A stretch of DNA of 44,926 nt from IMG/VR virus record IMGVR_UViG_3300045911_000134, positions 1-44,926 of that record; one strand, written 5' to 3'. The notes beneath the pieces are model-generated. The model was not told where the DNA came from. It ran no database searches and was given only the letters and a program-made list of their open reading frames with translations. The position numbers and the translations under genes were made by a program. This document shows, in pieces, positions 7,185 through 40,734 of this stretch; the stretch's first letter is position 1, and each line of letters opens with the position of its first letter. Source of the DNA: a virus.

Positions 7185-8618
7185 CTACGACTTCGGCAGA
7201 TCAACGAAGTTGAACAGTGTGTTGTGCATCGCATAGCGCGTGCAGTCCAAGAGGTGGCCCATGCTCTCGGCCCCCAGTGGTGCGTGCTTCAACTTGCCGG
7301 TCTTCTGGATCTCCACACTGCCATCGCTCGCGCGGCGGATCTCCACGAAGTTCAGGTCGTGCTTGGTCCACTTGCATCGTGGATGGAGGTACACGTTCGG
7401 GAAGCGGCTCCAGATCGAGTTGCAGAACATGCGGCTGTCCGCGATCGTCGGGTTGCTTCGTGAAAGCGTGAAGCGGCTCTCGTCCAAGCCCAGTTCGTTC
7501 GCGATCACGTTGTACTGGCTCAGGTGGTTGCGCAGGCCGCTGATCCTTGCCAGCCCGCTCGCATCACCAGTCACGTACTCATCCGGGTCAAGGTGCCTCC
7601 ATCTGGACTTCAACGCATCGCACACTGAGGGCGTGTCGGCATTCTCCATGCGCACCTCGTCCAAGATGTGGAAGAAGCTCTCTCCATCGGTCTGGAACAC
7701 TACCGCGCATGCAGGATCCACGTTGAAGTCGAACGAGTAGTACAAGGGCCACGCCGGGTCGTACTCAACCTCCTTCACGTGGCGCTTCTCATCGAAAGCG
7801 TACATGAAGCGGCCCTTCAGGTCGATCTCCCACTGCCCCTCGATGTAGCGGGCGTAGGTAACATCGTCGAGGTTGCTCCACTGCTCCCACTGCTCTTGGG
7901 TGACCGTGCTGTTGTCCTTGGCCAGCGCGATCGTGTAGTGGAACGGCACGCTGTCCGGGTCGCTCAACCAGCGCTCGTGTATGACGTTCTTGATCCAGTT
8001 GAACGCCGGGTTGAACGTCGCGAGCACCAACGGCGGCGGCATGTCCTCGATGTAGTACGATCCCGCGCGTTCGATTGCCTTGTTGTACGTGTTCTGACTG
8101 AGTTCTTCGATCTGCTCAAGCAAGAACCCGTTCGTCTCCAAACCCTTGAAGCGGTTGAGGTCCGGGTCACGGTGGAAGTTCTCGCTCAAGAAGTAGATCC
8201 GACTGCCATTGCTGAACTCCACGAAGTACTCGGAGCCGCCACGCTTCCATCGCACGTCGGCATCACCAAGGATCTTCAGCAGGCTCGGCTCGGTGTTGCG
8301 CGTCAGGTCAGGCATGGCCGCTCGAATGATGTGCCAGCGGCTTTTGGGATACCTGCGTGACAAGAGCACGAGGATGACCAAATACAGGAAGGTCTTACCG
8401 CCACGGATCCCGCCACCGTAGAAGAACTGGCGCAACGTGTGCGCTCTGGTCGGTGGCTTCGGTATCGGCCGCAACTTCTTGCCCTGCGCCTTGAGCACCG
8501 CGTTCTCAGCGCGAACCGCCTTGACCTGCTCGTAATAGGCGAGCATGCCCATCACGGCGTTGAACGCCTTGACCTGCTTCGGGTTGGTCTCATCGTTAAT
8601 GTGCGCGGTGACCGCCAT
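7185..8618 (-). CDS. terL: Terminase large subunit (packaging ATPase and nuclease)
   Basis: A 477-residue protein with the two-domain terminase plan. The ATPase half shows a Walker A (GGGIRGGKT, about 68-76), a Walker B with catalytic carboxylate (LLEQIEEL, 166-173) and a coupling motif (ATFNP, 200-204). The nuclease half shows an RNase H-like first acidic strand (SFDFNVDP, 295-302) and a second acidic motif (TGDASG, 350-355). It pumps DNA into the prohead and cuts the concatemer, docking on the portal encoded far away at 38995-40734. It follows the small subunit by 51 bases. Length is normal for the family, and all key residues are present. Confidence 0.96.
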   Translation of the reverse strand: MAVTAHINDETNPKQVKAFNAVMGMLAYYEQVKAVRAENAVLKAQGKKLRPIPKPPTRAHTLRQFFYGGGIRGGKTFLYLVILVLLSRRYPKSRWHIIRAAMPDLTRNTEPSLLKILGDADVRWKRGGSEYFVEFSNGSRIYFLSENFHRDPDLNRFKGLETNGFLLEQIEELSQNTYNKAIERAGSYYIEDMPPPLVLATFNPAFNWIKNVIHERWLSDPDSVPFHYTIALAKDNSTVTQEQWEQWSNLDDVTYARYIEGQWEIDLKGRFMYAFDEKRHVKEVEYDPAWPLYYSFDFNVDPACAVVFQTDGESFFHILDEVRMENADTPSVCDALKSRWRHLDPDEYVTGDASGLARISGLRNHLSQYNVIANELGLDESRFTLSRSNPTIADSRMFCNSIWSRFPNVYLHPRCKWTKHDLNFVEIRRASDGSVEIQKTGKLKHAPLGAESMGHLLDCTRYAMHNTLFNFVDLPKS

Positions 8619-8669: not shown

Positions 8670-9074
8670 TCACAAGTCGATGGATAGACCGCCCGGAAGG
8701 GTTATGGTCGTGCGCTTGTCCGCGCTACTGAAGTGGTCCTCCGCCTTCTGCCTGTGATGCGCCTTGCCGTGCGCGCGATCGAGCACGTCGTTGAGCACGG
8801 CCCAGCCGCGCTTGTTGCTCAATAGCTCCTTGGCGATGATGCGGACCAAGTAGGGCAGGCTGTCCTCCTTGGACGTGCTCTTCAACTCCTCGTTGGTGCA
8901 GTTGAGCAAGGTCTCCATCACCTCCTCCACCTCGGCCGCCGATACTCGTTCCAGCCCTTCCTCCCTCATGGACTTCAGCACGTTGCTCACCAACTTACGC
9001 GGTCGCCCCTTCGGGTTGCCGGATTGACCTTTTTGGAACGGCTTATTGCCGGGAATTGGGTTGGGTCGCTTCAC
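8670..9074 (-). CDS. terS: Terminase small subunit-like protein (KGxSGNPKGRP family)
   Basis: A 134-residue basic protein beginning MKRPNPIPGNKPFQKGQSGN, with the KGQSGNPKGRPRKL signature at about 15-28 that is common in phage proteins directly upstream of terL and usually annotated as DUF5681 or small terminase. The middle is helical and acidic; the C-terminus is basic. It would recognise the packaging site and hand DNA to TerL. The adjacent position supports the call. It starts shortly after a strong stem-loop (9104-9133) that probably ends the preceding transcript, so its own promoter should lie in 9075-9103 or upstream; I see no clear TAnnTTTG box there. Confidence 0.8.
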   Translation of the reverse strand: MKRPNPIPGNKPFQKGQSGNPKGRPRKLVSNVLKSMREEGLERVSAAEVEEVMETLLNCTNEELKSTSKEDSLPYLVRIIAKELLSNKRGWAVLNDVLDRAHGKAHHRQKAEDHFSSADKRTTITLPGGLSIDL

Positions 9075-9161: not shown

Positions 9162-9362
9162 TCACATATTCTTTGGGAACAGACCTGCATGCTCAGTGTT
9201 CTGAGCGTCCGATAGCCAATGGTTCAGCATTTCCACCTCCATTGGGTGCGGGTGGTGGTTCTCCAGCTTCGCGCCATCGGTGACGAAGTGGTCGAGGCCC
9301 CTTCCCATGCGCCGACCTTCCGCGTTGTGCTTGTCGTAGGCGAGCAGGGTCCAGTCGATCAT
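9162..9362 (-). CDS. Small protein upstream of terminase
   Basis: A 66-residue protein from the ATG at 9362 (MIDWTLLAYDKHNAEGRRMG...). The frame is open upstream to about 9440, with a possible TTG start at 9413, and the sequence before the ATG (LCEAKKSR) also looks like protein, so the start is uncertain. It is His/Asn/Met-rich and soluble, ending GLFPKNM. I do not recognise a family. It lies between the structured RNA and terS. If the hairpin at 9416-9444 terminates fully, this gene needs its own promoter or depends on read-through. Confidence 0.55.
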   Translation of the reverse strand: MIDWTLLAYDKHNAEGRRMGRGLDHFVTDGAKLENHHPHPMEVEMLNHWLSDAQNTEHAGLFPKNM

Positions 9363-9413
9363 GCGGGACTTCTTGGCCTCGCAGAGCAGCAAGACGGCGT
9401 GCGTCAGAAACAA

Positions 9414-9623
9414 GCGCCCCGGGAGGTGATCGGTCTCCCGGGGCTACTCGCATCGGGTATGGAGGCGCTCCACTACCCGGGTGGCTCCCGCCACAGTGTC
9501 GCCGCGACTTGCACGTGACTGACGCGGCCGCAAGGTATCACGTTGCCCGGAAGGACCAAGGGCGCACACAAACGCACGCCCCCAGTCCTAACCCCGGAAA
9601 CACTCCAACACGACTTGGAGGAC
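9414..9623 (-). ncRNA. Candidate structured non-coding RNA of about 210 nt
   Basis: From the expected start point of the promoter at 9629-9636, nearly the whole stretch folds. H1 is CTCCAA/TTGGAG (9603-9608 with 9615-9620). H2 is AGGAC..GGGCG with CGCCC..GTCCT (9552-9564 with 9577-9589), flanked by pairing CCGG blocks. H3 is ACGTGA/TCACGT (9513-9518 with 9538-9543) enclosing GCGGCCGC. H4 is GTGGC/GCCAC (9481-9494). H5 is CGGGTATGGAG with CTCCACTACCCG (9454-9479). H6 is a perfect 10-bp GCCCCGGGAG stem (9416-9444), followed on the minus strand by CGCTTGTTTCT, a plausible terminator. No convincing frame covers it. Promoter at one end, terminator at the other and no coding in between suggest a discrete RNA; a packaging or regulatory RNA are possible roles. 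Confidence 0.6.
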
Positions 9624-9628
9624 CCCGA

Positions 9629-9655
9629 CAAATGTAGTCGGTTGATCAGATCAAC
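9629..9655 (-). promoter_or_regulatory. TAnnTTTG promoter with an overlapping palindrome
   Basis: The minus strand reads TACATTTG at 9636-9629, matching the Bacteroidota -7 box. Just upstream lies a near-perfect palindrome, GTTGATCAGATCAAC (9641-9655), overlapping the stop of the 52-residue gene and the -33 zone. The palindrome could be an operator. Transcription would start near 9622, at the foot of the first hairpin of the candidate RNA. Confidence 0.6.
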
Positions 9656-9804
9656 GACCAACCGAAGTGGAACAGCTTGACCAGCGCGTGAAGGATGAGG
9701 CCAAGGATGGGCACGAGAGCCAACATGAGCGCGAAGCCGATGACGGGCAAGGCCCACTTCGTCCAAGCGCGTCCGAGGTGGTGGGTGATGAGTTGTTTGT
9801 TCAT
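9646..9804 (-). CDS. Small single-span membrane protein
   Basis: A 52-residue protein starting MNKQLITHHLGRAWTKWALP. A long hydrophobic stretch (LPVIGFALMLALVPILGLIL, about residues 19-38) makes one membrane helix, with a basic N-terminus and a short aromatic C-tail (FHFGWSLI). It is too short for usual gene callers but has good codon structure and sits in a chain of small genes. It might be an antiholin-like or exclusion peptide, but it is far from the lysis genes, so I give no function. Confidence 0.65.
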   Translation of the reverse strand: MNKQLITHHLGRAWTKWALPVIGFALMLALVPILGLILHALVKLFHFGWSLI

Positions 9805-9822
9805 CGTCGGTATGTGTTGCAG

Positions 9823-9945
9823 TTAGTTGTACGCCACCTGAGAGAACGTCAGTGCCTCGGCCAACCGGAAGCGGCAATCCGGTGGGCATTGCCAGCAACC
9901 GCCTCGGCTGACTTTGAACCGCTGACCAATGGCCCGTGAAATCAT
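9823..9945 (-). CDS. Tiny Cys-containing protein overlapping the PAPS reductase-like gene
   Basis: A 40-residue frame (MISRAIGQRFKVSRGGCWQC...) whose ATG overlaps the upstream TGA (ATGA), the usual coupling in this genome. It carries C-x2-C-x3-C in the segment CWQCPPDC, so it might bind a metal. It fills the space before the membrane protein gene. There is no known family, and it could be a chance frame. Confidence 0.45.
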   Translation of the reverse strand: MISRAIGQRFKVSRGGCWQCPPDCRFRLAEALTFSQVAYN

Positions 9946-10703
9946 CGCTCTTCGCAAAAGATGGTGCATTCCGGCATCTTCAAGTACTTCATCGGCCTTC
10001 CAACGGCATCGGCTGGGAGTTCGTCAAGGAACATTCGCTTGCCATTGTACCTTGTCAATTTGCAACCGATGCGCCTTGACTGCTCGGCCCGCTCTGCAAA
10101 CTGCTCCGGGTGAACCTTACGAACGTGGTTCCAGTATGTCGGGCTGGTCGCCTTCACGCACCCGATGCAATTCGCGTTTGGGTATCCAAGTCGGTACATC
10201 AGCGGCAATTCGATGCCTCGGTTGGAGATCAGCTGGAAGCAGTCTTCCTTGCTCAGTCCGGCCTCAATGAGCAACGGCAGCAGGTTGGATCGCTCGGTCT
10301 TCACGAAGTTGTTGTGCCGATTCTCTTCATCAGCCGTGAAGCCCATCACTATCCACTCATGCGGGTTCCTATCCTCGAATTCCTGCCGCGCTTTTTTCTT
10401 TAGCCACGTCGTGCAAGGCGCTCCTTTCACGCCGCTGATGTACTGGCGGTCTTCCCACACCTCTACACAGTCGCCGTTAGGGTACTTGGAACTTGCCGCA
10501 TTCTCGAACTTCATGCCCAGCCATTGCTCTACATCGGCAAGGAAGCGCCTGTTATCAGCGTCTTCCTGTTTGATGTAGTTGTTCACGATGCGAACATTGC
10601 ACCTATGGCCGTAGCATCGCAGCGTAAGCCATGCCGCAACCGCACTCGCAGCCCCGCAAGAGAACCACACCACTATAGTATCACCATCTTTCACTTTGTC
10701 CAT
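9942..10703 (-). CDS. PAPS reductase-like (adenine nucleotide alpha hydrolase) protein
   Basis: A 253-residue protein with the N-type ATP pyrophosphatase loop near its start (VVWFSCGAASAVAAW, about 11-25; the usual SGGxDS loop has become SCGAAS). Conserved-looking cysteines follow in GAPCTTWLKKKAR and NCIGCVKATSPTYWNHV. The family (PAPS reductase, DndC-like) activates a substrate with ATP and often handles sulfur. Phage members are common, with unproven roles in nucleic-acid modification or sulfur metabolism. It lies in the block with the two DNA methyltransferases and the SNF2 helicase, which fits DNA modification. No other phosphorothioation gene is present. Base composition looks more AT-rich than the virion genes. 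Confidence 0.8.
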   Translation of the reverse strand: MDKVKDGDTIVVWFSCGAASAVAAWLTLRCYGHRCNVRIVNNYIKQEDADNRRFLADVEQWLGMKFENAASSKYPNGDCVEVWEDRQYISGVKGAPCTTWLKKKARQEFEDRNPHEWIVMGFTADEENRHNNFVKTERSNLLPLLIEAGLSKEDCFQLISNRGIELPLMYRLGYPNANCIGCVKATSPTYWNHVRKVHPEQFAERAEQSRRIGCKLTRYNGKRMFLDELPADAVGRPMKYLKMPECTIFCEER

Positions 10704-12431: not shown

Positions 12432-12606
12432 CGTGTTCGGTTTGGTGTTTCGTTTCGGCCAACGTATAGCGCTCCACGTTAATAGCAAGGTCGTACGCCT
12501 TGTCCGGCAGGCCCCGCATGAACTCCATGCATGCGATGCGGCGATCGCGCAGGATCTCGCAAGGATCCTGCGCGGCGGCGGCTTGGTAGTGGCGTAGGGT
12601 GATCAT
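12406..12606 (-). CDS. Small acidic protein of unknown function
   Basis: A 66-residue protein (MITLRHYQAAAAQDPCEILR...), starting by ATGA overlap with the methyltransferase stop at 12603. It is soluble with an acidic C-tail. The end overlaps the HTH gene by 26 bases, which is long for this genome. I do not recognise a family. Confidence 0.55.
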   Translation of the reverse strand: MITLRHYQAAAAQDPCEILRDRRIACMEFMRGLPDKAYDLAINVERYTLAETKHQTEHDDLDTLDA

Positions 12607-17469: not shown

Positions 17470-17484
17470 GGTTTCCGGGGTAAT

Positions 17485-17509
17485 GGGGGCTGGCCAAATA
17501 CCAGCCCCC
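17485..17509 (-). terminator. Stem-loop in the leader of the 111-residue gene
   Basis: GGGGGCTGG (17485-17493) pairs perfectly with CCAGCCCCC (17501-17509) around a 7-base loop. No T tract follows, so it may be an attenuator or RNA-stability element. The gene-free stretch around it (17470-17667) also has a second imperfect hairpin near 17637-17655 (CCGGGTG/CACCCCGG), plus an unconvincing 18-residue frame ending near 17528. Confidence 0.4.
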
Positions 17510-17667
17510 GGTCAATGTTCAGGCGTTTACCGACCCTCGGCCGAATGTCCTTTCAATTCAGCCAAGGCGAGCAGGCCCTCCATTCTTGTCGTGTTACTGA
17601 TGTTTCGGGTGACGGACTACGCGCCGTCTTGCGCCGGGTGCTCACCCCGGAGTTGAGCGTTTATCGT

Positions 17668-17969: not shown

Positions 17970-18056
17970 CAAATATAAGGGCGCCGGATGTCTTTTTGCA
18001 ACACTTTGAGCATTTTATTTCCAAATTCTGGCGAGGGTTTCAGAGGGCTGAATGGG
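17970..18056 (-). promoter_or_regulatory. Promoter cassette 1 (copy of a three-fold repeat)
   Basis: The minus strand carries TATATTTG at 17977-17970 and TTGC at 18001-17998, 20 bases apart. Upstream is an A/T-rich block and a GAAACCC-CGCCA block shared with the cassettes at 22098 and 23483. It lies in the intergenic space before the 88-residue gene, whose leader reads CCCCAAACACCC. Confidence 0.7.
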
Positions 18057-20563: not shown

Positions 20564-21211
20564 TCACTTATTGAGCGTGGAGAGGTTGCTTGCCGCGGCC
20601 CGTCGCACGTCTGCACTGTCATCCTCCGCGATCCTTGCAAGCACATTGGGGGGGGTGGAGGGGTTGCAGGCTACAGCGTGGCGCACCCCAATCATAGCGT
20701 CTACTGCGAGCCGTGCCAGCACATCCAGCGGCGTTGATGGGTTGTGAGCAACCGCGTAGCGCACACAAGATTCCTCGTCCTCCGCGAGCCTTGCAAGCAC
20801 ATCCGGCGGCGTTGATGGGTTGAGGGCTGCCCAATAGCGCATCCAGCGTATGTCATTCTCCGCCAGCTTGCGCAGCACGTCGGGCGGCGTGGATGGGTTG
20901 AGGGCTGCGGTATCGCGCACCCACGCCTCCTCATCTTCCACGAGCCGTGCGAGCACTGCGGGCGGTGTGGAGGGATTGCGAGCTGCGAGCCACCGCAGGT
21001 TTGCATCATTTTCCTCGGCGATACATGCGAGCACCTCGCGCGGTATGACTCTATTCGAGGCGCACCAGTATGCGTTTTTCGCTAGTACGGCGACGAACTC
21101 CGCATCGCTCCTTGCCTTGAGGAGCCGCTTGAAATCGCGCTCGCACGCCTTGGCATCCTTACAGCGCTGGATGATTTCATCGCGCTCCTCCTTGGTCAGT
21201 GTGGTGGTCAT
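20564..21211 (-). CDS. Leucine-rich-variant (LRV) repeat protein, longer paralogue
   Basis: A 215-residue protein started at 21211 (MTTTLTKEERDEIIQRCKDA...). The first 60 residues carry Cys in RCKDAKACERDF, YWCAS and LACIAEE. About six 24-residue units follow (NPSTPPDVLARLAEDEE-CVRYAVA), making an alpha solenoid. The founding LRV protein, from Azotobacter, has an N-terminal 4Fe-4S cluster; four Cys here make that conceivable but unproven. At DNA level the units are 72-bp near-repeats, so copy number may vary between strains. It shares a paralogue immediately downstream. Its role is unknown; solenoids of this type usually bind a partner. Confidence 0.8.
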   Translation of the reverse strand: MTTTLTKEERDEIIQRCKDAKACERDFKRLLKARSDAEFVAVLAKNAYWCASNRVIPREVLACIAEENDANLRWLAARNPSTPPAVLARLVEDEEAWVRDTAALNPSTPPDVLRKLAENDIRWMRYWAALNPSTPPDVLARLAEDEESCVRYAVAHNPSTPLDVLARLAVDAMIGVRHAVACNPSTPPNVLARIAEDDSADVRRAAASNLSTLNK

Positions 21212-22097: not shown

Positions 22098-22190
22098 CAA
22101 AGATAAGGGTACCGGATGTCGATTTGCAAGTATTTGTGCAACTTTTTTTACTTTCTCAGGATTGGCGCGGGTTTCAGAGGGGGTCGAAAG
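22098..22190 (-). promoter_or_regulatory. Promoter cassette 2 (copy of a three-fold repeat)
   Basis: The minus strand has TATCTTTG at 22105-22098 and TTGC at 22129-22126, 20 bases apart, preceded by GTAAAAAAAGTTG and GAAACCCGCGCCAATCCT blocks shared with cassette 3 and partly with cassette 1. It drives the HNH gene and the run below it. Confidence 0.7.
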
Positions 22191-23482: not shown

Positions 23483-23580
23483 CAAATATAAGGGCGTCCG
23501 GTGTCTTTTTGCAAGCGTTTGGGCAACTTTTTTTACATTCCCAGGATTGGCGCGGGTTTCAGAAGGGGTCGAGAGGGGGG
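23483..23580 (-). promoter_or_regulatory. Promoter cassette 3 (copy of a three-fold repeat)
   Basis: The minus strand has TATATTTG at 23490-23483 and TTGC at 23514-23511, 20 bases apart, with the same upstream GTAAAAAAAGTTG and GAAACCCGCGCCAATCCT blocks as cassette 2. It fills part of the gene-free stretch 23445-23633. The rest of that stretch is G-rich on the plus strand, without a gene. Confidence 0.7.
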
Positions 23581-25510: not shown

Positions 25511-26268
25511 CGCCCCATCTGCAAGTAGCGCAGCATGTCGTCGGCCTGCTGCTGAGCCTTCGTTTCATCCTGCCTGTGACGCAGTTTTCCCGCGTCCTTG
25601 TCCCGACGCATCGCGCCGGTGACGGTCGATAACCAACCGGCAGCCGTGCGCTTCTTGCGCGGGTTTTGATCGCTCCAGCCCATCAGCGCCTCAAAGTAGT
25701 GCCTGACGTCAACGTTCAGCGCATCTGCTTCGCGGATCGGCGGCAACTGGCTGAACACCTCCCACGTGCCAACGGAGGACTTGCGGAAGGTTGTGAGCTT
25801 GTCGGCATCCGGTTGATCGAACATTGAAAGCGACTGCCGCTCTACTTGTAGTTGTTCATCAACTACAAGTAATGGAGATGGAGATAGAGATGGAGAGCTT
25901 TCGTTTGGGTTTGCAGTGGGTTTGCCAGAAGAAAGGCCTGGGTTTTTGCCCTTGGTGGACGCGGCTTTCGGACGGCCCCCCTTCTTCCCATTCATCGCTT
26001 GTCGATGCCTAAACTGGTCCATTTCAGCCCGCTTTTCCTCCATCCATTCGAGGTACAAACACCCCTCTTTTTGCGCGAACAAAAACCCAACCCTATCCCA
26101 ACCCTTTCCGGCGACCGATGCCACCACTTCGGCCGGTGACGGTCCAGCGTCCCAGAGGTACATCATCGCCTTGCACCAAGCCCCTACGGCCTCACTATCG
26201 GCAAGGATCGGCATCAACTCCCGCAGGCGGTCGCCCGGGTAGAACTGAAATGCGGGTGGACGTTTCAT
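25507..26268 (-). CDS. DUF1376-like replication initiation protein
   Basis: A 253-residue protein started at 26268 (MKRPPAFQFYPGDRLRELMP...). The first 85 residues match the DUF1376 outline (PAFQFYPGD, then AVGAWCKAMMYLWDA), a winged-helix type seen in phage replication proteins. A low-complexity Ser/Pro/Asn/Gln linker follows (about 100-150) before a C-terminal helical part (FEALMGWSDQNPRKKRTAAG). The linker DNA contains a perfect 12-bp hairpin and GGAGAT repeats, an origin-like cluster placed as in lambda gene O. It probably binds the origin and recruits the host helicase. Confidence 0.75.
   Translation of the reverse strand: MKRPPAFQFYPGDRLRELMPILADSEAVGAWCKAMMYLWDAGPSPAEVVASVAGKGWDRVGFLFAQKEGCLYLEWMEEKRAEMDQFRHRQAMNGKKGGRPKAASTKGKNPGLSSGKPTANPNESSPSLSPSPLLVVDEQLQVERQSLSMFDQPDADKLTTFRKSSVGTWEVFSQLPPIREADALNVDVRHYFEALMGWSDQNPRKKRTAAGWLSTVTGAMRRDKDAGKLRHRQDETKAQQQADDMLRYLQMGR
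25843..25897 (-). other. Candidate replication origin inside the initiator gene
   Basis: TACTTGTAGTTG (25843-25854) and CAACTACAAGTA (25860-25871) form a perfect 12-bp inverted repeat around a 5-base loop. Directly beside it GGAGAT-type hexamers repeat about four times (25874-25897). This is the most AT-rich and repetitive spot in the gene and lies in its linker-coding part, as in lambda O. Confidence 0.45.
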
Positions 26269-34248: not shown

Positions 34249-35310
34249 TCAGGCCAGCACCTGCCCGTTGTACAGGAAGGTGTAGTTCACGCCGAAGCGC
34301 TCGTCGTTGTAATTGCCCGGTCCCGGACCGCTGAAGATGCCGGTCGGCATGGAGAACAGTTCGTGGTGCACGCCGAACTGCATCTTCCACACCTCCTCGC
34401 ACTCATCGTAGCGGATCTTGGTGTCCAGTTCGATGCCCTGCACAGGGTCCACGGTGGTGGTCAGCTTGAACTGGTTCTCCACCTCCTTGCGGAACTCGCC
34501 GCGGTACTTGTTGTACAGGCCCAACTGAACGGCGCCCGGCGCGAACACGATGATCGGGTTCACCGGCGTTCCATCGGCGATCTGCGCGACGTCGCGGTCG
34601 CGGTAGAACAGGTAGCTGCTGGCCAGCTCGCCAACGTCCTGTCCGTACTCGTTGCAGCAGCCGATGTTCGCGTGGCGGCTGTAGCGACTGATGACGCCAC
34701 TTCCGACCACGATGGGACGGCCAACGCCGAGGTCGGCCATGTCCTCCAGCATCGTCACTTCGCCATCGGGCACGATGATCTCACGACCGCCCTCCAGCTT
34801 CAGCAGGGGCAGGTTCTTGCCAGCAGCGACGCCGCCGATGAAGCCACCGACGAAGTTCAGATACTGCGCGATCAGCTTGCGGTTCAGCGCGCGGAACACA
34901 CCGCTCATGTGCTGCGCGATGCGCATCGTGACCACCTCGCTCGGGGCCTCGCAGTACTTGCGCAGCTCGGCATCGGTGAACTTCATCACACGGCTGCCCG
35001 TGTACTGGGTGATCTCCACCGTGTCGAGGATGCGAGGCTCCTCCACACCTTCGCCGCAGATGTCCTGCTCCGTGCTTACGGTCTGCGTGTGCGGAATGGG
35101 GATAGACCATTCACGGATGACGAGGTTCTTCTTGCCGTCGAGGTTGTCCACGGCGTAGCGCGTTTCAAAGCCAGCGCGGTTGACCTCACTGTTGACGGCG
35201 TCAAGGAAGCCGGTAGGCTCCCGCTTCAGTGCGGGGTAGTTCTCTCCGGCAAGTTGGTTCAGGTTCTGCTGTGCGGTACGGCAGAACAGCTCCAGATTGA
35301 TGGTAGGCAT
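34249..35310 (-). CDS. Major capsid protein
   Basis: A 353-residue protein started at 35310 (MPTINLELFCRTAQQNLNQL...), after a 104-base leader shared with the probable tail tube gene. Composition and length suit an HK97-type shell protein: a helical start, then beta-rich body (IPIPHTQTVSTEQDICGEGV) and closing NDERFGVNYTFLYNGQVLA. It sits directly after the scaffold gene and before a stem-loop. No HK97 protease is visible, so the scaffold may leave without cleavage. Several Cys (DICGEG, IGCCNEYG) recur across this virion. Confidence 0.85.
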   Translation of the reverse strand: MPTINLELFCRTAQQNLNQLAGENYPALKREPTGFLDAVNSEVNRAGFETRYAVDNLDGKKNLVIREWSIPIPHTQTVSTEQDICGEGVEEPRILDTVEITQYTGSRVMKFTDAELRKYCEAPSEVVTMRIAQHMSGVFRALNRKLIAQYLNFVGGFIGGVAAGKNLPLLKLEGGREIIVPDGEVTMLEDMADLGVGRPIVVGSGVISRYSRHANIGCCNEYGQDVGELASSYLFYRDRDVAQIADGTPVNPIIVFAPGAVQLGLYNKYRGEFRKEVENQFKLTTTVDPVQGIELDTKIRYDECEEVWKMQFGVHHELFSMPTGIFSGPGPGNYNDERFGVNYTFLYNGQVLA

Positions 35311-38994: not shown

Positions 38995-40734
38995 CTACTC
39001 GGTGTCTCCGTCAAGGTCCTCCTCGGGAGCGAGTAGTCTCGATGCGGGCATGATCTGCTCCACCATGTCGTCGATCAGCTCGAACACGTTATCCTGCCGA
39101 AGCACCTCCAAGCCCTTCTGCCCGACAAGTCGTTTGATCGCCGAGAAGCCGTACGTGTGGCGGCGGAGCGTGATGTCATCAACAGCGCCGGACATCTTCG
39201 CAGCGGTCACGTCGGCCACGCTCATGCCGAACAACGGGTCGTACTCCTGAAGCATGGACATCACGAGCTGCAACCTCCTGTCGCCGGGGAACCGTTTGAT
39301 CGTGTACTCCACCAGCACTTCGCCCTTCACCATGAACGGGGCCTTCGCCTCGTCAAGGCGTTTGATCTCCTCCACCAAGCTCTCCTCATCGCGAACGATG
39401 AACGTCGGCGGCAGTGTGATGTTGATCGCGCCCTCTTCCAGCCTACGCCCAAGCAACTGGGCAAGGTCCAGTATGGTGTTGTGCATCAACACGCTGAACA
39501 GGTGGAAGCCGATGGCGTCGAGCTTGGCGATCTTCCCCTCGCGATCGATCTGCTTAGCCACACCGCTCTGTGCCTCATCAACGAACAACTGGCTCAGTTC
39601 TTTCTCCAGCCTCTTCAGGTAGTTCTCCCAGAACTCGGAGCCGAACTTCAGAATGTCCACCGGCGGTGCGATGAACTTCACCATGTCGCGCTCGTTCTCC
39701 GAGCTTTCGCCACTCAGCACACCGGCCTCCGGACGCACCAAAACACCGTATGGACCTATCGGCGATATGCGACCGTTGCGACACACCGTGCAGCGACGCT
39801 TGGTGCTCGTGTCATCCGGGCCGCGCTCAGTGATCCATCCGTCCTTGCAGCCGGTCACGGTGCACTTTATCGGACGCACCTCGCGCAACGGGAACCCGGC
39901 AGTGACGACAACGCCTTGGTTGTCGCTCCACTGCCTGACGCACTCGTTGGCGAACGGGATGGCGTGGGCCACGAAGGACTTCTGCCACTCTTCTTCCTCG
40001 CCTGTATCAGGGTTGATTTCAACGTACTCATCACCGCCGAGAACATCGACGGGCAGACGGCCGAGACCGTGAACGTACTGTGGGTCCAGACGGAAGTTGC
40101 GCTGTTCCTTGAAGCCGTACTGCACCAGCTTGTAGTAGGCGTCATTCGTGACGATGTAGAACACCTCACCCTCCTTGCGAACCTCATCGCGCTCGCCGGT
40201 CTTCACCAGTACCTCGCTGCGCTCACCAGACTTCCACGACACGACGTCATCGGTCTTGTGCACGATGTGCGCGGACAGCACCAGTTCAAGGCTCGGCACC
40301 ACGCGCTCGTTCGGCGCGTCGGGAACAGTACCAACCCAACGCACCAACAGCCCGTTGGGGTCAAGTATCATGCGGCGCGGAAGTTTCTTGGTCCACCATG
40401 TGCGCAGGTCCATCTTGTCGAAGTTCCGCCCGTCGATGAAGGCTTCGACAACATCATCATCCACCTCCACGGAAACCTGCGCACTGCCGAACACGCGACT
40501 CAGATCGCTGAGGAAACGCGAGAACGGGCCTTGCGTGATGGGCTCGTAGTTGTCCTTGCGATACTTGGCGATCTCCGGATCCTCATACGGCCTGCGATCC
40601 GATATGAGCTTGTCGGCGAGCTTGCCGTTGACGTGTACAGCAACGGCTTCGTACTCCCCGACCCATCGCTTTTTCAGCGGCGGGCCGGGGAGCTTGAAGA
40701 AGCTCTCGACGTAGGTGTCGATGTCGAACGCCAT
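38995..40734 (-). CDS. Portal protein with a zinc-ribbon-like insertion
   Basis: A 579-residue protein (MAFDIDTYVESFFKLPGPPL...). Size, place before the minor head protein, and the C-terminal helical part (KLDAIGFHLFSVLMHNTILD through the end) fit a portal, the dodecamer through which DNA is pumped. Residues 291-318 contain C-x4-C, then C-x2-C (CTVTGC, CTVCRNG), a zinc-ribbon-like insert not usual in portals, probably on the outer clip or wing. An acidic C-tail follows. It is 31 kb from terL along the map, so packaging and portal genes are not neighbours. Confidence 0.82.
   Translation of the reverse strand: MAFDIDTYVESFFKLPGPPLKKRWVGEYEAVAVHVNGKLADKLISDRRPYEDPEIAKYRKDNYEPITQGPFSRFLSDLSRVFGSAQVSVEVDDDVVEAFIDGRNFDKMDLRTWWTKKLPRRMILDPNGLLVRWVGTVPDAPNERVVPSLELVLSAHIVHKTDDVVSWKSGERSEVLVKTGERDEVRKEGEVFYIVTNDAYYKLVQYGFKEQRNFRLDPQYVHGLGRLPVDVLGGDEYVEINPDTGEEEEWQKSFVAHAIPFANECVRQWSDNQGVVVTAGFPLREVRPIKCTVTGCKDGWITERGPDDTSTKRRCTVCRNGRISPIGPYGVLVRPEAGVLSGESSENERDMVKFIAPPVDILKFGSEFWENYLKRLEKELSQLFVDEAQSGVAKQIDREGKIAKLDAIGFHLFSVLMHNTILDLAQLLGRRLEEGAINITLPPTFIVRDEESLVEEIKRLDEAKAPFMVKGEVLVEYTIKRFPGDRRLQLVMSMLQEYDPLFGMSVADVTAAKMSGAVDDITLRRHTYGFSAIKRLVGQKGLEVLRQDNVFELIDDMVEQIMPASRLLAPEEDLDGDTE

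Follow-up and report, generated by a model that had tools for sequence, protein, structure and literature searches.

In phage HK022, the put sites are cis-acting leader RNAs that lie upstream of phage genes, and the put RNAs consist of two short hairpins that act on RNA polymerase. Attenuation leaders, such as those of Bacillus subtilis trp and rplJL and those built on riboswitch or T-box platforms, join a promoter and a long structured leader to downstream co-directional genes, and they carry a terminator-like hairpin with a 5' arm that complements a segment farther upstream. The phi29 pRNA (Rfam Phage_pRNA) is a phage-encoded structured RNA associated with packaging genes. In Bacteroides, 5' untranslated regions have a median length of 32 nt, 13.5% of them exceed 100 nt, and some small RNAs share their start site with an mRNA (PMC7366714). 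The locus described here lies on a phage contig from IMG/VR (44,926 bases), the whole of which was analyzed and is called the window. It combines a promoter, a row of hairpins, and a terminator-like stem, a layout that is real and that is unusual for this genome.

Genome context and promoter

Both ends of the contig are identical over 127 bp, and the phage genome is probably complete; because 127 is also a common assembler overlap, we take the identity as a circular assembly, short of a proven terminal repeat. All gene calls fall on the minus strand except for two low-scoring ones near the left end, and the recognizable genes encode TerL, a DUF5681 TerS homolog, a portal-like protein, and a tape-measure protein. 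The minus-strand genes around the locus include the following: terL at 7185-8618 (Pfam PF03237 and PHROG terminase large subunit); the terS homolog at 8670-9074 (Pfam PF18932, E 1.8e-9; 57-60% identity with sister phages); a small ORF of 66 aa at 9162-9362 (beginning MIDWTLLAYDKH; codon score, 0.30); and a gene at 9646-9804 encoding a 52-aa single-TM-like protein (MNKQLITHH...FHFGWSLI*; codon score, 0.48 bits/codon). Relatives of the 66-aa and 52-aa products were searched for, and none were found. The 283-bp gap between these two genes is among the longer gaps of the genome, and the leader unit lies directly upstream of the small ORF, terS, and terL, all in the same direction. Elsewhere in the window, we observed a 78-bp tandem repeat of about 3.5 copies (20706-20986) and perfect in-gene hairpins of 12 bp (25843-25871) and 11 bp (12546-12574, minus strand).

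The promoter box claimed at 9629-9636 in the preliminary description is present there on the minus strand as TACATTTG, a -7 box of the Bacteroidota type, with a predicted start at 9624 placed by the rule of a G at -5 (PMC6847099). The stricter form of the motif, TAHHTTTG, which was defined from Flavobacterium johnsoniae transcript ends (PMC6847099), had nine matches in the phage, all nine on the minus (coding) strand and eight of them intergenic; shuffling of dinucleotides gave an expectation of 0.26 in the gaps, with a maximum of 2 in 300 shuffles. This enrichment in the coding-strand gaps suggests that the phage very probably uses Bacteroidota-type promoters, and it would point to a Bacteroidota-type host. 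The looser pattern TANNTTTG had 11 matches on the minus strand and 1 on the plus strand. In addition, a TTG at 9659-9661 (minus strand) lies near the expected -33 position, with a 22-nt spacer to the -7 box, and its position matches that in the promoters at 17970, 22098, and 23483 within 1 nt; judged by its motifs, the predicted promoter at 9629-9636 is convincing. Because terS and terL are co-directional with this promoter and no further TANNTTTG box occurs between 9629 and 6287, a transcript from 9624 would be the obvious source of their mRNA; promoters elsewhere could also feed terS by read-through. The promoters at 17970-17977, 22098-22105, and 23483-23490 (minus strand) have a common extended upstream sequence (TTGCAAA, GACA, CCGG, and CCCTTATNTTTG) and probably form a co-regulated set.

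Fold, alternative pairing, and coding potential of the proposed leader

About 210 noncoding bases made of hairpins and closing with a 10-bp GC stem had been proposed, and the hairpins were found at the positions listed for them. On the minus strand, the predicted elements were as follows: hairpin 1, CUCCAA/UUGGAG (9603-9620; pair probabilities, 0.90-0.99); hairpin 2, in which a 5-bp basal stem carries a 16-bp stem that includes several G-U pairs (9547-9597; 0.85-1.0); region 3, with alternative GC-rich pairings (9501-9546; 0.23-0.79); hairpin 4, GUGGC-GGGA-GCCAC, with a GNRA-type loop (9481-9494; 0.95-0.96); hairpin 5, CGGGUA(G)UGGAG-CGC-CUCCAUACCCG (9454-9479; 0.52-1.0); and the terminator-like hairpin 6, a perfect 10-bp GC stem with a loop of 9 nt (9416-9444; core, -21.9 kcal/mol). 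Hairpin 6 extends with G-U pairs to 16 bp (9410-9451; -28.8 kcal/mol) and runs into a U-rich tail, GCTTGTTTCTGA, at 9404-9415. A helix of 9623-9621 with 9498-9500 can close the first half of the fold, and the predicted start at 9624 falls within one base of it.

The minus strand of 9405-9660 (256 nt) folded at -128.5 kcal/mol (z, -4.4; 0 of 200 shuffles as good), compared with -104.9 kcal/mol (z, -2.9) for the plus strand. For the 214-nt leader on the minus strand, z was -4.3, and none of 600 shuffles was as good. The stretch 9399-9618 had the lowest z (-5.1) of 320 minus-strand windows, for which the scan mean was -0.4 (SD, 1.2), and among the 15 gaps of about 100 nt or more, the leader had both the lowest energy per base and the lowest z (-4.3). 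A fold scan of a sister phage showed equally or more extreme windows inside genes, so that a low z is not by itself enough to mark an RNA gene. Perfect intergenic stems of at least 9 bp numbered two in the genome: hairpin 6 and one without a U-rich tail. The latter, a GC stem GGGGGCTGG/CCAGCCCCC at 17485-17509 (minus strand), has no U-tract and lies in a gap (17470-17667) with a z of -3.35. A separate observation concerned the portal-like gene, which has near its 5' end a strong in-gene hairpin (window 40654-40692, minus strand; z, -5.9 in two phages). This hairpin is kept across three sister phages (in the window, at L094:13092-13130, plus strand, and at L087:8540-8578, minus strand), and its main stem shows an A-U to G-C double change; with three sequences only, the signal is not significant against shuffles, but sliding the partners destroys it.

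Upstream of hairpin 6, the candidate antiterminator strand UUUCCGGGGUUA (9600-9589, minus strand) is a 12-nt complement of UAGCCCCGGGAG (9446-9435), and the latter includes the entire 5' arm of hairpin 6; the preliminary description does not mention this pairing. Of 2000 dinucleotide-shuffled leaders, 12 reached a complementary run of 12 nt, and of 1100 other genome stretches, none did; this small probability is post hoc, as the pairing was noticed after inverted repeats had been inspected in a GC-rich, CCGG-rich stretch. Because UUUCCGGGGUUA shares bases with the 5' strand of hairpin 2's basal stem, the antiterminator and basal-stem states are mutually exclusive, an arrangement also known from attenuators and riboswitch platforms. 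When the growing chain was folded, which gives an equilibrium prediction in silico, neither kinetic nor experimental, the antiterminator pairing had a probability of 0.91 with the 3' end at 9437-9422, and hairpin 6 took over fully (1.00) from 9416. In the full-length leader, the terminator fold was favored by about 14 kcal/mol.

As an intrinsic terminator, hairpin 6 has a clear 10-bp GC stem, but its tail, GCTTGTTTCT, is interrupted and possibly coding; the terminator consensus scan did not include the hairpin because its loop is 9 nt. The interrupted U-tract TTGTTTCT contains a TTG that could be the start codon of the downstream ORF. A start at this TTG (9413) would make the small ORF 83 aa long, and it is possible because the 51 nt past hairpin 6 (9363-9413) score as in-frame coding for that ORF (codon score, 0.40). 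If TTG 9413 were the start, hairpin 6 would act on translation initiation instead.

The statement that no frame covers the region proved right for coding signal and wrong for open frames as such. The six frames of the leader scored -0.10 to -0.44 bits per codon, compared with 0.08 to 0.64 for in-frame gene segments; three mechanical ORFs do overlap the leader (9473-9898 and 9193-9453 on the minus strand and 9219-9518 on the plus strand), and none of them had a credible PHROGs match. A short frame, GTG TTG GAG TGT TTC CGG GGT TAG (9611-9588, minus strand), runs up to the antiterminator strand and could conceivably encode a leader peptide, although chance is the likelier explanation.

Sister phages and homology searches

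A search with TerL yielded three sister contigs at 74-78% identity, and the same search of sequenced genomes yielded none. The preliminary description had suggested looking for the fold upstream of terS in related phages, and it was not there: the sisters (TerL about 74% identical) carry other sequence at that position. In one of them (L003), queD- and folE-like genes, as read from the translations, lie directly before terS, and the stretch L003:2557-4839 as a whole contains queuosine-pathway-like genes (QueC, QueE, QueD, and FolE-like, by eye from the translations). In the sister behind L002, a 10-bp tandem array lies right before terS. This array (L086:7645-7956 and the start of L002/L094) has a TGCTAACGGG-like unit in about 25 copies plus 6.5, and these units are candidate pac-type iterons. 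Since the sister phages lack the element upstream of terS, it does not appear to be needed for terminase expression in the group.

Relatives were sought through TerL, a TerL alignment, the 66-aa ORF, the TM gene, the PAPS-reductase-like gene, and the protein at 34249-35310; these protein searches gave only the three close TerL sisters, none with the leader region. A single-sequence covariance model (R1) gave nothing credible over the sisters, 80 PAPS-gene loci (which share the gene at 9942-10703), and the pattern hits. Viral contigs were scanned for exact hairpin patterns of 16-18 nt and genomes for one of 17 nt; these scans returned 0, 14, and 38 stretches, none of them supported by the model. 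We discounted one R1 hit of 23 bits, in Sorangium (L147:1351-1508), because an opposite-strand ORF of 752 aa encloses it, many of its positions are missing, and it does not overlap the pattern hit through which this locus had been retrieved. Rfam had no match in the whole window at the gathering score, and at E values up to 5 it returned only miRNA models, far below the cut-off. The DNA similarity search gave only chance pieces of 25-27 bp in phages and nothing in plasmids, and a ACGTGATACCTTGCG shared after terL in L002, a 15-bp match with an E of 0.8, was taken as chance. Because it is absent from the sisters and the 80 PAPS-gene loci, the leader element appears to be lineage-specific or fast-evolving.

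Candidate functions and comparison with known systems

We tentatively favor, at a little short of an even chance, the reading of the locus as a transcription attenuator, in the form of a structured 5' leader that precedes the small ORF, terS, and terL. This reading is preferred because it explains a promoter that fires into a terminator-like stem and because the alternative pairing dominates the growing-chain folds until the 3' arm emerges. An upstream promoter in the same orientation is provided by TACATTTG, and a mutually exclusive antiterminator fold is predicted in silico. In this model, the sigma-ABfr promoter (Bacteroidota type) at 9629-9636 would give a minus-strand transcript from about 9624, the first 210 nt of which would form the structured leader ending in the terminator-like hairpin. 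By default, much transcription would stop at about 9405, leaving a leader RNA of roughly 210-220 nt; pairing of the 12-nt segment at 9600-9589 with the 5' arm of hairpin 6 would block the terminator, and read-through, promoted when pausing, a protein of the phage or host, or translation stabilizes the alternative fold, would let RNA polymerase reach the packaging genes. The leader would in this way limit or time expression of the small ORF, terS, and terL. We infer the transcription, termination, and switching, together with any trigger and a benefit of timed terminase expression. The leader extends about 260 nt to the small ORF, which is long relative to the Bacteroides median. Against the attenuator stand the interrupted U-tract, the coding score past hairpin 6, the preference for the terminator fold at full length, the post hoc choice of the antiterminator pairing, the lack of the element in the sister phages, and the read-through that promoters elsewhere could supply to terS. 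If the attenuator reading is true, RNA-level control would lie right before the terminase genes in a phage with Bacteroidota-type promoters, and the prediction is precise: two pairing strands, one start, and one stop, in one genome.

Hairpin 6 might also be a plain terminator for upstream transcripts, or a stable structure in the 5' part of the terS mRNA, with the rest being incidental structure in a GC-rich spacer. The last hairpin accounts for about half of the folding excess, and without it only a mild excess of structure is left (z, -2.4, a value reached by 9 of 600 shuffles); the local GC content is 64-66%, compared with 59.6% for the genome, and coding parts hold strong hairpins too. We nevertheless consider this explanation rather doubtful: it leaves to be explained why a promoter would fire directly into its own terminator, hairpins 2, 4, and 5 are each predicted to be stable, and the antiterminator match exceeds what shuffles give.

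The preliminary description had proposed a discrete new noncoding RNA beside the terminase genes. The layout behind that proposal stands, but a long 5' leader is no less likely, because co-directional genes follow directly with no intervening -7 box. Such an RNA, about 210 nt long and acting in trans as a regulator, decoy, or protein-binding RNA, would have its own promoter and terminator, and the downstream genes would be reached by read-through. The complete promoter-to-terminator unit and a number of stable hairpins, of which one has a GNRA-type loop, are consistent with it, and the G-U pairs in hairpin 2 and the folding advantage of the minus strand (20 kcal/mol) point to a minus-strand RNA. 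However, that strand difference compares with 11.2 +/- 4.7 kcal/mol in shuffles and amounts to only about 1.9 SD, no homolog turned up in the collections searched, and the leader accounts for the same layout; we regard a discrete RNA as unlikely. Quite unlikely, too, is a new RNA of one Bacteroidota-promoter phage lineage, acting either as a switch or in trans, that would gate the terminase genes and time packaging.

A DNA-level site for packaging (pac) or replication, with the palindromes read as DNA, is improbable. The locus adjoins terS, a frequent pac location, the 127-bp identical ends are compatible with circular permutation and headful packaging (or with an assembly overlap), and the sister behind L002 has its tandem array right before terS; yet no direct-repeat (iteron) family occurs at 9340-9720, and pairing rich in G-U functions only in the RNA of one strand. 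The packaging RNA that had been listed as an alternative, of the phi29 pRNA type, shares only a location near terminase genes and a similar size with the locus and is scarcely credible, given that the phage has a TerS homolog and TerL and that Rfam gave no relevant match at E values up to 5.

Among known systems, the phi29 pRNA resembles the leader in being a structured RNA associated with packaging genes, whereas the leader has no Rfam match, accompanies an encoded TerS/TerL pair, and forms a row of hairpins with a terminator-like stem. The HK022 put sites and, by proposal, the leader are both cis-acting phage leaders, their similarity having been compared through Rfam alone. The long 5' untranslated regions and 5'-derived small RNAs of Bacteroides have the same promoter type but are chromosomal and not from a phage (PMC7366714). 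With attenuation leaders, the locus shares the promoter, the long structured leader, the downstream co-directional genes, and a terminator-like hairpin whose 5' arm complements an upstream segment; it differs from them in that no ligand-binding family was recognized, the U-tract is interrupted, the promoter is of the Bacteroidota type, the genes under control would be packaging genes, and the leader is known from one genome. In function, the leader would add one more example to a known class of device, the structured and possibly attenuating leader.
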